A stretch of 64,000 nucleotides of DNA from the NCBI GenBank assembly GCA_025356095.1, contig JANXUR010000050.1:1-64000 (forward strand), in the 5' to 3' direction. The notes under the pieces are model-generated. The model was given only the letters and a program-made list of their open reading frames with translations, searched no databases and was not told the DNA's origin. Below, in pieces: positions 6,860 through 25,082 of this stretch; the first letter of the stretch is position 1, and each line of letters starts with the position of its first letter. This stretch comes from Acidobacteriaceae bacterium (GTDB lineage Bacteria; Acidobacteriota; Terriglobia; Terriglobales; Acidobacteriaceae). The translations under genes were made by a program, and so were the position numbers.

Positions 6860-7417
6860 TTAGCTGCCGGTGGGCGGCTGGAGGGCACGCCGTTCGAGAC
6901 GGTCGAGTTCGGCGAAGATTTCGTCGACCGTGATAGAGATCGGGGTGCTCTCGACCGAGAGAGTCTCGTTTACTTCGTGGAGGACGCCGTCACGAGCGGC
7001 GGTGTAGGCGATTCGGCGCCAGGGGTCTACTACCCAGGAAGTTGGGACGCCCATGCTGGCGTAGTCGTTGATGCGCTCACGAATTTTGCTCATGCGATCT
7101 TCGCTGGAGAGAATTTCGATGCAGAGGATGGGCGGGGTACGGACGATGCGCTCGTCTACGTTGGGCACAATAGCTAGGATCACGTCGGGAATACGGAAGC
7201 GATTGCTCGCGACCTGCACTCGTTGCTCGGTCAGGATTTCGAAGTTGAGCGACTCTTCGGACGGGGCGAAAAACTTTACGAAGAAGGTTTGCAATCGGGC
7301 GTGAGGTGTTTCCCCCATATTTCTCTCCAAGACTTCGCCGTCGACGTAGTCGCAGTCGGGGCGGTAGACGGTGCTCAGGTATTCGTCGACAGAGATCAGA
7401 AGTGGGGTTGTGACCAT
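6860..7417 (-). CDS. Uma2-family endonuclease-like protein
   Basis: The 185-aa product belongs to the Uma2/DUF820 family, with a PD-(D/E)xK nuclease-like fold whose biological role is poorly known. The hallmark N-terminus (SVDEYLSTVY ... CDYVDGEVLE) and the core pair RIPDVIL and CIEILSSED are present, followed by the family's DYASMGV and WVVDP motifs. The ATG is preceded by GGAGG 8 nt upstream, which fixes this start over a codon 66 bp upstream. Such genes are often in multi-copy, lone positions, and nothing next to it suggests a partner. It is convergent with the hydrolase gene (3-bp gap). Confidence 0.85.
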   Translation of the reverse strand: MVTTPLLISVDEYLSTVYRPDCDYVDGEVLERNMGETPHARLQTFFVKFFAPSEESLNFEILTEQRVQVASNRFRIPDVILAIVPNVDERIVRTPPILCIEILSSEDRMSKIRERINDYASMGVPTSWVVDPWRRIAYTAARDGVLHEVNETLSVESTPISITVDEIFAELDRLERRALQPPTGS

Positions 7418-7492
7418 GGCAGCCTCCGCTGGAGCTAGGATACACGGGCTTGGTCGATGGATTGGCGTGGAGCGCCGCGGCAAAAGCGAAAT

Positions 7493-7528
7493 ACTGAGAT
7501 TCTTCGCGTTGCTCAGAATGACCTCAGT
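7493..7528. other. Two-step palindrome between Uma2 and ABC genes
   Basis: The outer arms ACTGAG/CTCAGT and inner arms ATTCT/AGAAT flank TTCGCGTTGCTC. The sequence lies 26 bp after the stop of the ABC ATPase gene on the minus strand and could end that transcript. It shares the CTCAG-A/G-ATGAC motif with the palindrome at 2979-3019. Confidence 0.5.
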
Positions 7529-7553
7529 TTCTTACTTCAGACTGACCCGAGAT

Positions 7554-8435
7554 CTAGGAGTGGCTCTTGCTGTGGCGGACTCCGCCCTCGCCGGCGAACC
7601 GTGCGCTCGGGTGATCGCTGGCGATGACGCCATCGCGAATGGTGATGACGCGGTGGGCGAACTCGGCGATGTCGGGCTCGTGGGTGACGACGACAATTGT
7701 GTTGCCCTTGGCGTGGAGTTCATCGAACAGCGCCATGATCTCGTCGCCGGTTTTGGAGTCGAGGTTTCCCGTGGGTTCGTCGGCGAGGATGATGCTGGGG
7801 CGGTTGACCAGCGCGCGGGCAATGGCCACGCGCTGGCGTTGGCCGCCGGAGAGCTCGTTTGGCTTGTGCATCATGCGGGAGCCGAGGTGGACGGATTCCA
7901 GGACTTCGGTGGCGCGGGCGATGCGCTCGGCTGCGGGAGTTCCGTTGTAGATGAGGGGCAGTTCGACGTTGTGCAGCGACGACGCGCGGGCCAGCAGGTT
8001 GAAGGTCTGGAAGACGAAGCCGATTTCCTTGTTGCGGATGCGCGCAAGTTCGTCGTCGTCGAGTTCGCTCACCTGCTGATTGTTGAGCCAGTACTGGCCC
8101 TGGCTGGGCGAGTCGAGGCAGCCGATCAGGTTCATTAGCGTGGATTTGCCTGAACCGGACGGTCCCATGATGACGACATACTCGTTGTGCTTGATCTTGA
8201 TATTGACGCCGCGCAGCGCGTGTACCTGCTGTTCGGATCCCATGTCATACGTCTTCCAAATATTGTCGGTAACGATGACGTGGTTGGCGGTGTCTAGCGC
8301 GGTGATGCCGGAATGCGGCGCTTCGAGCGGCGCGTTGACTGCCGCACTGACTGCCGCGTTGAGTACTTCGGCTGCTGCCATGTTCTCCCCCAAATTTCCC
8401 GCTACATTCGCTGCTGCATTTGCTGAATCAGGCAC
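7554..8435 (-). CDS. ABC transporter ATP-binding protein (MacB/LolD type)
   Basis: This is the nucleotide-binding subunit of a MacB/LolD-type exporter, acting at the cytoplasmic face of the inner membrane. Visible motifs are Walker [10 protein letters not shown] (91-99), the signature LSGGQ (195-199), Walker [10 protein letters not shown] (215-223) and the H-loop His (about 252). The GTG start has GGGAGA 7 nt upstream. This gives a 293-aa protein with an unusual Ala/Asn-rich extension of about 50 residues before the normal family start; an internal ATG at 8381 would remove part of it. It is the second gene after the HlyD-type adaptor (111-bp gap). No permease follows, although the family normally needs one. 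Confidence 0.93.
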
Positions 8436-19974: not shown

Positions 19975-21357
19975 CTAAAGTGCTGGCAGAATCAAGCCCC
20001 TGCACTCTCCACAGCCGATGCGGCGGAAGCCCTCTGATTCCGCGTAGGCGCGGATTGTTACTTCATCTCCATCCTGCAAAAACTTGCGGGTTTCACCGGT
20101 AGGCAGAGCCAGCGGCTCGGTGCCGCGCCACGTCAGCTCCAGCAGGCAACCGCGCGAGTCCTTCGCCTCGCCAGAGACAGTTCCGCTGCCCAACAGGTCG
20201 CCGGGACGCAGGTTGCAGCCATTGCTGGCATGGTGGGCCAGCATCTGCGCAAGTGTCCAATAAAGGTCGCGCAGATTTCCCCGGCTTAGTCGCAGCGCGG
20301 GGATATTTTCCTGCCGCATCTTGGCCGAGCTGAGCCACAACTCCACTGTTAGATTGATGCCGCCGTGGTCGTGGTTGTTGGCATCGCTCAGGTAGGGCAA
20401 CGGCGCGGGGTCGCCTTCGGGCCGCGCGAATGCTGGAACGCGGAAGGGTGCGAGCGCTTCCATCGTAACCACCCATGGTGAGATGCTGCTGGCAAAATTT
20501 TTGGCCAGGAAGGGACCGAGCGGCTGGTACTCCCAGGTTTGCATGTCGCGCGCCGACCAATCATTCAAGATGCAAACGCCGAAGATACGGGTCTCGGCTT
20601 TGGCGAGCGGAATCGGCTCGCCAAGTGCGTTGCCCTGCCCCACGAAGCATCCGATTTCCAGTTCGTAGTCGAGTCGTTTGCTGGGGCCAAATTCGGGTGG
20701 TTGCTCGGCACTGTCACGAGTCTGTCCGCTGGGGCGACGCACCGGGGTGCCGCTCACCACAATAGACGAGGCGCGCCCGTGGTAGCCGATGGGAATGTAC
20801 TTGTAGTTGGGTAGTAGTGGGTTTTCAGGCCGGAACATGCGACCTACATTGGTGGCGTGGAAGACTGAGGCGTAGAAGTCGGTATAGTCGCCAATATGCG
20901 CGGGCAGCAGCATTTGCAGCCCCGCTTGCGGCAACACGCAGTCACCCACCAATTGCCGCAGATTGGCATCCGCCCTCGAACCGAGCAGACGCTGGAGCTG
21001 ACGGCGCAACGCGCTCCAAGCGTCTGGCCCCAACGCCATCAGCGAGTTCAGTGTGACCTCGCCGCAGGCGTTGAGCACCCGCTCGCCCAGCTCGTCACAA
21101 CCGTCAAGCTCTTCAAGACCGTCACGACCGTCAAGCTCGTCAAGCAGACCAAAGCTGGCAGCGGCATGCAGGTCCAGTACGGAATTACCAATCGCCACAC
21201 AAATATGCCCGCCATTCGCCGTCGCGAATACCCCGTAAGGCAGGTTCTGGATGGGGAAGTCTGCTTCTGGCAGATTGGCAGAGTCCACCCAACTGGTCAG
21301 TTTGGGGTCGTGGGTCTGGTTGGGAGCGTAAGAAGATGAGTCTGCTGAAAAGGACAT
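19975..21357 (-). CDS. fahA: Fumarylacetoacetase
   Basis: The enzyme hydrolyses fumarylacetoacetate to fumarate and acetoacetate, the last step of tyrosine catabolism. The 460-aa product shows the family's N-terminal motif DFPIQNLPYGVF and the catalytic region YTDFYASVFHATNVG. IPIGYHGRASS, the metal-binding LDYELEIG and NDWSARDMQTWEYQPLG also match. The start MSFSADSS resembles other family members; the ribosome-binding site is weak. A 9-bp repeat tract encodes an Asp/Glu/Leu-rich insertion near residues 72-86 (see 21100-21144), before the catalytic domain, so activity is probably kept. It is the last gene of the minus-strand homogentisate operon. Confidence 0.95.
   Translation of the reverse strand: MSFSADSSSYAPNQTHDPKLTSWVDSANLPEADFPIQNLPYGVFATANGGHICVAIGNSVLDLHAAASFGLLDELDGRDGLEELDGCDELGERVLNACGEVTLNSLMALGPDAWSALRRQLQRLLGSRADANLRQLVGDCVLPQAGLQMLLPAHIGDYTDFYASVFHATNVGRMFRPENPLLPNYKYIPIGYHGRASSIVVSGTPVRRPSGQTRDSAEQPPEFGPSKRLDYELEIGCFVGQGNALGEPIPLAKAETRIFGVCILNDWSARDMQTWEYQPLGPFLAKNFASSISPWVVTMEALAPFRVPAFARPEGDPAPLPYLSDANNHDHGGINLTVELWLSSAKMRQENIPALRLSRGNLRDLYWTLAQMLAHHASNGCNLRPGDLLGSGTVSGEAKDSRGCLLELTWRGTEPLALPTGETRKFLQDGDEVTIRAYAESEGFRRIGCGECRGLILPAL
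21100..21144. repeat. 9-bp coding repeat tract within fahA
   Basis: There are five 9-bp units: ACCGTCAAG, CTCTTCAAG, ACCGTCACG, ACCGTCAAG and CTCGTCAAG. The first 18 bp recur 27 bp later with one change. Read on the minus strand they encode an acidic stretch, LDELDGRDGLEELDG. The frame is kept because the unit is a multiple of three. Confidence 0.8.
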
Positions 21358-21468: not shown

Positions 21469-21594
21469 TCATCTGGCCCCGCTGGTTTTAGAGGCATCGC
21501 GTACTGCGGCGGTGACGTGATGGCCGCGTGAGAGCAGTTCCGTAAGAATGCGGCTTCCCGCCATTCCGGTCGCGCCATAAAGGACTACGTGCAC
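21469..21594 (-). pseudogene. Truncated NAD(P)-binding (NmrA/SDR-like) protein fragment
   Basis: A 41-codon frame starts at GTG with GAGGAG upstream and reads [20 protein letters not shown], then [16 protein letters not shown], ending SGAR and a stop. This is the first beta-alpha-beta unit of an atypical SDR/NmrA-type Rossmann fold, with the GATGMAG dinucleotide-binding motif. The whole remainder (normally about 160-200 residues) is missing; the strong hairpin at 21409-21447 follows about 20 bp after the stop. It looks like the stump of a deleted gene. Translation of the stump is possible. Confidence 0.75.
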
Positions 21595-21719: not shown

Positions 21720-22643
21720 TTATGGCAGCAATCGCAGAGCGCGCAGATCTGCCACTGGCTCTTCAAACGAACAAGAGCCAAAGGCAATCGCAAAGTTGGT
21801 TCGGAAGTCGGCGATTTGTTCGGTAGTGAGCGACCCGCCATTCCATGCAAGGCCGATGCTGGTAAAAGTGCATTCGCTGGCATCGGGACGGTTGAAGATG
21901 GGGGCAGCTTGCGCCACGTCGGCACCCAGCCACAGCAAGCCAGCAGCCACAAATAGATTGAGGAAGCCATGCATCTTGCCGCAGGCTGCGTCCGGCTCAT
22001 AGGTCAATGGATAGTTGCCCACCGTTGCGTGATGCAGTCCGGCGGTGGCTTTGAAGGCGAGCCTGCGCTCGGCGCACCCAGCCATAAAACCCAGCACATC
22101 TTCGGCAGCAGGAACCATTTCCGTCTTCACGCCGCCAGTGCGAATCTTGCCGCGAATCGCGCCGTCTGAATGTTGACCTGCCGCAACCATGGCGTCGAGA
22201 AACGTCGCGCAGCCCTCAGCGTTCAGGTCAGCGAATTCCAAATAGGCGTTGATGGAAGCCGGAAGGAGCCGAGCGATGCGATCCGCATCCTTTGGGGTGT
22301 TCAACCTGCATTCGATGGAATCAATTTGCGCGCGGTTGGTGGCGGCATGCTTGGCGTTGAAGGCGCGGATGGCGCCAAGGTCATTCTCCATGCTCTCGCC
22401 AACGAGGGCGCTGATGTGCCACTCGCATCCGTGCTCATTCCAGAACGGTGTGGCTGCCACTTCAAACTCCGCCAGCCGCGCTGCCGGTACAATGAAGCGC
22501 GCCAACATCCATTGCTCTGGGCTGAGCCTGTATCGGGCGTAGTTCGCCACGGCGGGAGCCATGCCCAGCCCGGCGGGCGGGAACAGCCCCGCATAATCCA
22601 CGAGGGATGAGAACAGAGCGCGAGCAGAGGCGGGTGTGGGCAC
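21720..22643 (-). CDS. Unknown protein in the homogentisate operon (307 aa)
   Basis: The product begins with MPTPASARALFSSLVDYAGL at a GTG codon that lies 4 bp after the homogentisate dioxygenase stop, so translation is probably coupled. It has no signal peptide. Conserved-looking blocks are DYAGLFPPAGL, GGVKTEMVPAAEDVLGF and LAFKATAGLHH, with alternating helices and strands that suggest a barrel-type fold. I do not recognise a named family. The operon has no gene for maleylacetoacetate isomerase, which acts between its neighbours; a role in that step or in handling its product is a hypothesis based only on position. Confidence 0.85.
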   Translation of the reverse strand: MPTPASARALFSSLVDYAGLFPPAGLGMAPAVANYARYRLSPEQWMLARFIVPAARLAEFEVAATPFWNEHGCEWHISALVGESMENDLGAIRAFNAKHAATNRAQIDSIECRLNTPKDADRIARLLPASINAYLEFADLNAEGCATFLDAMVAAGQHSDGAIRGKIRTGGVKTEMVPAAEDVLGFMAGCAERRLAFKATAGLHHATVGNYPLTYEPDAACGKMHGFLNLFVAAGLLWLGADVAQAAPIFNRPDASECTFTSIGLAWNGGSLTTEQIADFRTNFAIAFGSCSFEEPVADLRALRLLP

Positions 22644-22647
22644 AGGA

Positions 22648-23946
22648 CTAGGGCTTCCCGTTAAACCGCTTAGGAATATCTTGCCAGCACTCGTAGTATT
22701 CGTGTTGCAACTCTGCGGTGGCCAGCGCGTGTTGCGTCACTTTTACAACGAAGCGGGTTTCGAACATAAAGGCCAGTGTGTCTTTCAGGTACACCGGCTT
22801 CAGGTCGGCTTCGGTCGCAGAGTGCACGGTTGCGGCATCTGGCCCGTGGCCACTCATGCAGTTATGAAGGCTGGCACCGCCGGGTAAAAAGCCTTCGGCC
22901 TTGGCGTCGTACTCGCCGCGAATCAGACCCATGAACTCGTTCATAAAGTTGCGGTGGAACCACGGCGGGCGGAAGGTGTTTTCCGCAACCATCCAACGTG
23001 GAGGAAAGATGACGAAATCGCAATTGCCTGTGCCCGGAATTGACGATGGTGCAGTCAGCACGGTGTAGATCGAGGGGTCAGGATGATCGAAGGTCACCGA
23101 ATTGATGCAGTTAAAAAGCGCCAGATCATACTTGTAAGGAGTCCAGTTGCCGTGCCACGCCACCACGTTCAGCGGCGAATGGTTGATCTCGGCCTCCCAC
23201 AAGCGGCCTTGGAACTTATTAATGACGCGGAAGTCGCCGTCGAGGTCTTCAAACGCGGCCACGGGCGCCAGAAAATCGCGCGCATTCGCTAGTCCATTGG
23301 CACCGATGGGGCCGAGGTCGGGCAGTCGAAAGTAAGGCCCGTGATTTTCGCAGATGTAGCCGCGAGCTTGCGGGTCGAGCACTTCCACGCGAAACTTGTT
23401 GCCACGGGGGATGACCACAATCTCGCCGGGTGCAACCTCCAGAATTCCCATCTCCGTATGAAAGCGCAGCTTGCCGAGTTGTGGCAGGATCAGCAATTCG
23501 CCATCGGCATCATAAAAGTAACGGCCTTGCATGGATTTGTTGCAGGCATAGATGTGAATCGCCACGCCTGCGTGGGTGCCTACATCGCCGTTGCCGCCGA
23601 GCGTCATCAAGCCGTCCACAAAGTCGGTGGGTGTGGTGGGCAGCGCGAAGGGCGACCAGCGCAACTGGTTCGGCGTGGAGTGAACTTCGTTGAAGGGAGT
23701 GCTGCGCAAAAAGCCCTGCGTGCGTTCCACAAACGGCTTGTGCATTACGCTGGGCCGGATGCGGTACATCCACGAACGCCGGTTGATGTGGCGTGGTGAG
23801 GTGAATGGCGTGCCCGAAAGCTGCTCAGCATAAAGCCCATACGGAGGCCGCTGTGGCGAGTTCATGCCCTGCGGCAACGCGCCGGGCATGGCTTCGGTGG
23901 CGAACTCGTTGCCGAAGCCGGATTGGTATTGCAGTGCTTCGCTCAT
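22648..23946 (-). CDS. hmgA: Homogentisate 1,2-dioxygenase
   Basis: The Fe(II) dioxygenase opens the aromatic ring of homogentisate to maleylacetoacetate. The 432-aa length is normal. The N-terminus [13 protein letters not shown](M)PGALP is diagnostic. The iron-ligand region is present: [18 protein letters not shown], then [16 protein letters not shown]. The start ATG has GAGGAAT about 9 nt upstream; a longer frame adds eight residues without support. It lies 47 bp after the HPPD gene and 4 bp before the 307-aa gene, in one operon. Confidence 0.97.
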
Positions 23947-23993: not shown

Positions 23994-25082
23994 CTACAAA
24001 TTTCCGCGGCGTTCCTGTTCCATCTCGATAGACTCGAACAGCGCCTTGAAGTTGCCTTTACCGAAGCCCTTGCAGCCTTTGCGCTGGATGATCTCAAAGA
24101 ACAGTGTAGGGCGGTCTTCCACCGGCTTGCTGAAGATTTGCAGCAGGTAGCCTTCGTGGTCGCGATCCACCAGAATGCCCAGTTTTTTGATGGCATCAAT
24201 GGATTCGTCAATCTCCCCGACGCGGTCTCGCAGCACCTCGTAGTAGGTGTCTGGTACTCGTAGAAAGTCAATGCCGTTGGCGGTGAGCTTGCCGACGGTT
24301 TCAATCTCGTCTTTACACTGCAACGCCACGTGCTGCACGCCGGGGCCGCCGTACCATTCCAGATATTCCTGAATCTGGCTCTTGCGTTTGCCCGCCGCTG
24401 GCTCGTTGATAGGGAACTTCACCGAGTAGGAGTCGTCGCTCATCACAATGGACATCAGCGCGGAATATTCGGTAGAGATGTCTTTGTCGTCGAAGGTGAT
24501 GTAGCGGTGGAAGCCGAGCACGTCGGCATAGAAGTTCGCCCACTTTTCCATCTCGCCGAGGCCGACATTGCCCACCATGTGGTCAATGCGCAGAATGCCG
24601 AGATCTTGTTCCGGAATTGGCGCAGCCGCAAAGCCAGGCAGGAAGGGGCCGTTGTAGTCCTTATAGCTAAGGATGGAATGGATAGTGTCACCATAGGTGT
24701 GGATGGCGGCGCGGCGCATGGTGCCATGCTGGTCGCTCCAGTCGTGAGGCTCTTCCACGGGTTTGGCGCCGCGCTCAATCGCGGCGGCGAAGGCTACGTC
24801 GCAGTCGAACACTTCAAATGCGATATCTTTCACGCCATCGCCATGCTTGGCGATGTGTTCAGTAATGGGACCGTCGGGCGTCATCGGCGTGGTCAACATA
24901 AAGTTAACCTTGTTCTGCGTGAGCACGTAACTGGTGCGGTCACGCAGGCCGGTCTCCAGGCCCGCGTAGGCGGCTTGCGAGAATCCAAAAGCCTTGCGAT
25001 AGTAATAAGCCGACTGGCGGGCATTCCCCACCCAGAATTCCACGTGATGAATGCGCTTGAGCTTGAGCGGATTGGTTCCCAT
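23994..25082 (-). CDS. hppD: 4-hydroxyphenylpyruvate dioxygenase
   Basis: This Fe(II) enzyme of the VOC fold converts 4-hydroxyphenylpyruvate to homogentisate. The 362-aa product carries the two VOC halves, with the metal ligands His in RIDHMVGNV, His in [11 protein letters not shown] and Glu in [10 protein letters not shown]. The N-terminal half starts [13 protein letters not shown]. The ATG is preceded by AAGGGG. It is the first gene of the minus-strand tyrosine-degradation operon, so its promoter should lie between 25083 and 25439. Confidence 0.97.

Follow-up and report, generated by a model that had tools for sequence, protein, structure and literature searches.

The tyrosine degradation operon of an Acidobacteriaceae bacterium, located in the 64,000-nucleotide stretch of its genome analysed here (the window), probably encodes a glutathione-independent maleylacetoacetate isomerase that is not homologous to the classical enzyme MaiA. 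We assign this reaction to a 307-residue ORF on the grounds of its operon position, distribution, predicted fold and residues. With somewhat less assurance, we lean towards a wider proposal: that the unnamed TIM-barrel family of this ORF is the maleylacetoacetate isomerase of bacteria without glutathione, works free of any low-molecular-weight thiol by means of a cysteine and/or a lysine Schiff base, forms a non-homologous replacement for MaiA across many phyla, and is the missing gene behind an old glutathione-independent activity. Tyrosine, phenylalanine and many aromatics share homogentisate degradation as a core route, yet profile searches detect no isomerase gene in large sections of the bacterial tree. 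If the assignment is correct, one unnamed family fills this gap in many phyla, a widespread hypothetical protein gains a name, and a new mode of cis-trans isomerisation without glutathione could be revealed.

The operon and its uncharacterised gene

The initial annotation had placed 4-hydroxyphenylpyruvate dioxygenase (HPPD), homogentisate 1,2-dioxygenase (HGO) and fumarylacetoacetase (FAH) in the window, and an uncharacterised gene 4 bp past the second dioxygenase. Both observations were borne out. The three enzymes were identified by NCBIfam equivalog models, each over its cut-off (Table 1), and the HGO stop at 22648 leaves a gap of 4 bp to the 307-aa ORF. Homologues of the ORF occur in 20 other genomes of a 100-genome set of relatives, the best with 36-49% identity, and at least 569 relatives were retrieved from the GTDB collection; thus, the ORF is a real gene.

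Table 1. Genes of the tyrosine degradation locus in the window
Feature	Coordinates	Strand	Evidence and remarks
4-hydroxyphenylpyruvate dioxygenase (hppD, HPPD)	23994..25082	-	TIGR01263, 448 bits, over cut-off
homogentisate 1,2-dioxygenase (hmgA, HGO)	22648..23946	-	TIGR01015, 690 bits, over cut-off; start taken at an ATG
307-aa ORF, putative glutathione-independent maleylacetoacetate isomerase, unnamed TIM-barrel family	21720..22643	-	GTG start; homologues, operon position, fold model
41-codon stump similar to the N-terminal part of an NAD(P)-binding (NmrA-like) epimerase	21469..21594	-	translation; resemblance by eye
fumarylacetoacetase (fahA, FAH)	19975..21357	-	TIGR01266, 545 bits, over cut-off; start taken at ATG 21357

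The usual gene order among the relatives is HPPD-HGO-ORF-FAH, and in most of them the ORF and FAH genes are adjacent or overlapping. In the genome of the window, by contrast, these two genes lie 362 bp apart, and the gap contains the 41-codon NAD(P)-binding stump of Table 1. This stump is preceded by a GAGGAG-like site and followed by an inverted repeat.

Absence of the classical isomerase and thiol background

The genome (3.53 Mb, 100% complete, contamination 0.01%) was searched for a GST-type isomerase, as the initial annotation had proposed. No match to TIGR01262 was obtained at E <= 0.001 by a profile search that was positive in control genomes. None of 99 relatives carried maiA over the cut-off of 171 bits; 98 were empty and one gave a weak 27-bit hit. 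The same was true of 50 ORF-bearing genomes drawn from loci in many phyla (0/50 over cut-off). The reported lack of an isomerase gene in the operon is upheld, and the alternative that the classical enzyme is encoded elsewhere is ruled out within the sensitivity of profile searches for this genome and the 99 relatives, bearing in mind that a very divergent GST-type enzyme might escape TIGR01262. Glutathione synthetase was found over cut-off in none of 65 genomes of the class to which the window belongs, and the bacillithiol enzyme BshC was over cut-off in 59 of these 65, the window's genome included. A glutathione-dependent enzyme is therefore unexpected in this lineage, and bacillithiol is expected.

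A widespread family without a name

The ORF has no match in Pfam or NCBIfam even at E = 1, and none among PDB sequences, whether a single protein or a 76-row profile is used as query. Two superfamilies of particular relevance, PF01557 (fumarylacetoacetate hydrolase) and the DinB-like helical bundle of mycothiol- and bacillithiol-dependent isomerases (DinB/MDMPI), gave no match to the ORF, and its model is a mixed alpha/beta barrel. Distant members match no named family and show only scattered weak Pfam matches, restricted to one or two members each. No paper naming the family was found in the openly licensed literature, and the annotated plasmid copies are labelled as hypothetical proteins.

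A single-sequence scan with peptide patterns had returned no relatives, and the alignment-based scan then yielded the set given above. The family is spread over Acidobacteriota, Gemmatimonadota, Planctomycetota, Bacteroidota, Chloroflexota, Cyanobacteria, Actinomycetota and Priestia megaterium; the titles of GTDB records add Phycisphaerales, Pirellulaceae, Chlorobiales/Ignavibacteria, Opitutaceae and one deltaproteobacterium. Plasmid copies are found in Streptomyces, Pseudonocardia, Rhodococcus, Tsukamurella, Nonomuraea, Priestia and the cyanobacterium Kovacikia. Plasmid-borne members are confined to Gram-positives and one cyanobacterium, whereas maiA-type plasmid records number 231, and the 60 that were listed all come from Proteobacteria.

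Conservation of gene order

Among 20 ORF loci from relatives, HGO lies immediately upstream in 17 and FAH immediately downstream in 15. The association with FAH extends to 80 loci from many phyla, where FAH follows the ORF directly in 62 and is located within the stretch around it in 69; at 10 of the 80, none of HPPD, HGO and FAH is found within that stretch. For example, the order is hppD-ORF-fahA-hisC-HGO on a plasmid of Priestia megaterium, HGO-ORF-fahA in Pseudonocardia, hppD-HGO-ORF-fahA in Tsukamurella (where the identity of the ORF was confirmed), and ORF-fahA in Streptomyces. No fusion of the ORF with HGO or FAH was seen among the loci.

The ORF accompanies two types of HGO: that recognised by TIGR01015, and a shorter one seen in Priestia and Actinomycetota. 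The shorter type, followed by the ORF, is also present in four genomes of a sister family (G060, G065, G072 and G073; loci L045, L046, L049 and L050), where it scores far under the TIGR01015 cut-off and no FAH gene was found within the stretches. On two Rhodococcus plasmids (L152, L153) an HGO-like cupin dioxygenase is followed by an alpha/beta hydrolase in place of ORF and FAH, an arrangement that perhaps serves another ring-cleavage route.

Co-occurrence with fumarylacetoacetase

In the 100-genome set of the window the ORF is associated with HGO of any type (p = 9e-13, uncorrected for relatedness). A second, Bacteroidota-type sample comprised 198 genomes of the phylum to which an Ignavibacteria member of the family belongs. 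Canonical FAH was over cut-off in 75 of these, the family profile matched in 30, all of which were among the 75, and maiA was present in none of the 198. True members of the family occur in 24 of the 75 genomes with FAH and in none of the 123 without it (Fisher p = 5e-12, uncorrected for relatedness), a count that leaves out six weak, split hits (G195, G226, G275, G287, G291 and G339). All six were dropped because the five that were read (G195, G291, G275, G226 and G339; loci L155-L159) lack the lysine and cysteine motifs, and two of these were seen to lie in an unrelated context. The co-occurrence check suggested in the initial annotation thus places the family, in this sample, strictly within FAH-containing genomes.

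The five rejected sequences (at about 6930-8363 of each locus) appear as a degenerate paralogue in which the KxRxGG, KATAGLHH and GSCS motifs are lost. In the two loci that were examined, its neighbours are HU-like DNA-binding genes and a radical-SAM (HemW-like) gene instead of tyrosine genes. This paralogue might have been taken over for a non-catalytic function.

Genomes with neither gene

Four genomes of the same family as the window (G033, G034, G038 and G043; loci L053-L056) contain abutting HGO and FAH genes and lack both the ORF and maiA. About 45 of the 75 FAH-containing Bacteroidota-type genomes likewise have neither gene. The step thus has more than two solutions: the pathway can dispense with both genes, or it has a third way of completing this step. 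No divergent copy of the ORF was detected at E <= 1 in HGO-containing genomes that lack it, and no obvious substitute gene was seen in operons without the ORF; an extra gene in the operon of G033 turned out to be phenylalanine 4-monooxygenase. Loci L160-L171 likewise contain HGO and/or canonical FAH without maiA or the ORF, with HGO and FAH as neighbours in L163 and L169.

The acidobacterial genome G018 (L059, 6694-9990) has an operon of HPPD, a short FAH-family gene and an HGO of the other type, again without the ORF. This arrangement is the same as that described for Bacillus anthracis, in which an isomerase gene cannot be identified (PMC4457819). The enzymes of the G018 operon might hydrolyse maleylacetoacetate directly.

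Predicted structure and conserved residues

An AlphaFold2 model built from 76 rows has a mean pLDDT of 96.2 and a pTM of 0.93. Eight beta strands alternate with helices along the modelled chain in the order of a (beta-alpha)8 TIM barrel, which does not match a GST/thioredoxin-like fold. TIM barrels keep their active sites at the C-terminal ends of the strands, and it is at or near these ends that the conserved residues are placed in the model: D16 and Y17 on beta-1, E136 on beta-5, K166 and R168 on beta-6 (162-168), K198 on beta-7 (197-200), and C291, within the sequence FGSCSF, just after beta-8. None of 108 members varies at K166, R168, E136 or K198, and 107 have C291, the last member showing a gap there. 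His204 and His205 (KATAGLHH) are also among the invariant residues. The invariance of TAGLHH and DYAG-PP in this set is partly by construction, since the 108 members were filtered on these two motifs and the GTDB scan used KATAGLHH/DYAG-FPP as search patterns, but both motifs are likewise invariant in a 17-member set that was not selected by them.

Foldseek returned only distant TIM barrels, headed by the deoxyribose-phosphate aldolase 3ng3 (E 2.1e-3, TM 0.39/0.52). In a local profile alignment with this aldolase family (DeoC), the K.RTGG and KATAGL motifs of the ORF family pair with KTSTG and KASGG at an hhalign probability of 1.6%, which is not significant. With neither a PF01791 nor a TIGR00126 match, membership of the DeoC/class I aldolases was rejected. 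The pairing of lysines may nevertheless serve as a lead for Schiff-base chemistry, as distinct from family membership. We know of no cis-trans isomerase that combines a TIM barrel with aldolase-like lysines.

Proposed mechanism

The ORF protein would convert maleylacetoacetate, the cis product of HGO, into fumarylacetoacetate, the trans substrate of FAH. The MaiA reaction proceeds by addition of glutathione to the double bond. This thiol role might be taken by Cys291 of the protein itself, and/or Lys166 or Lys198 might form a Schiff base that activates the conjugated ketone. The C2=C3 bond could then lose its double-bond character, rotate and re-form as trans, while His204/His205, Arg168 and Glu136 might contribute to carboxylate binding and proton movement.

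Alternative explanations

Genome context cannot prove that the ORF is an isomerase, and association alone cannot separate this function from another role linked to FAH. The same association would be given by a maleylacetoacetate hydrolase or another diketone enzyme, which might bypass the step by forming maleate and acetoacetate, or dispose of side products such as succinylacetone. The invariant lysines of beta-6 and beta-7 would be apt for a Schiff-base mechanism acting on a beta-diketone, and there is a report of maleylacetoacetate hydrolase activity from some Bacillus (Crawford 1976, cited by PMC4457819). A bypass hydrolase would, however, make FAH unnecessary, which conflicts with the usual partnership of the ORF with FAH: a canonical TIGR01266-type gene stands beside it in most loci, and in the Bacteroidota-type sample the family is limited to genomes with FAH. 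Moreover, the Bacillus anthracis-like operon of G018 does without the ORF. We therefore regard a hydrolase or other diketone enzyme as unlikely. The bypass raised in the initial annotation keeps its place as a parallel solution, given the genomes with HGO and FAH that lack both genes, but as an account of this operon it is less favoured by the conserved context than the ORF.

Those same genomes, which belong to Acidobacteriota and the Bacteroidota-type phylum, together with the presence of bacillithiol biosynthesis, could also point to a step carried out elsewhere or non-enzymatically, by bacillithiol catalysis or by an FAH that accepts maleylacetoacetate, with the ORF as an accessory. We consider this quite unlikely, as it leaves unexplained why one family has been retained at the exact same position in many phyla, in genomes devoid of maiA, and the invariant residues of the ORF look catalytic. 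A divergent GST-type isomerase elsewhere in the genome, or one of the DinB type dependent on bacillithiol or mycothiol, has a thiol-dependent precedent in the mycothiol-dependent maleylpyruvate isomerase, which is of the DinB type. It is nonetheless very improbable, in view of the TIGR01262 searches of the genome and its relatives, and no such gene was seen in the operons that were read. The proposal that the ORF supplies the missing step through an unrelated protein is favoured by its conserved position with HGO and FAH across phyla, its nesting in FAH-containing genomes, and the absence of maiA over cut-off in all genomes tested.

Comparison with known systems

The ORF shares its proposed reaction and its slot in the pathway with MaiA (GST-zeta, TIGR01262), which in Proteobacteria occupies a similar operon, e.g., hmgA-FAH family-maiA in Phyllobacterium. 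The two differ in that the ORF has no sequence match to MaiA, is predicted to be a TIM barrel rather than a thioredoxin/GST fold, and occurs in lineages without glutathione synthetase; in the relatives, the loci from many phyla and the 198-genome sample, it accompanies HGO and FAH in settings that lack maiA. The modelled TIM barrel of the ORF, with lysines on beta-6 and beta-7, might recall DeoC, but no phosphate substrate is expected for it. Maleate isomerase, of the Asp/Glu racemase superfamily, carries out a cysteine-based cis-trans isomerisation; the chemical idea would be similar, whereas the fold is different and there is no Pfam match. A functional parallel might be the glutathione-independent maleylacetoacetate isomerase activity that Hagedorn and Chapman reportedly described in 1985 in Gram-positive bacteria, without a gene. 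It belongs to Gram-positives that degrade homogentisate, among them Priestia (Bacillus) megaterium, which itself carries a homologue of the ORF.
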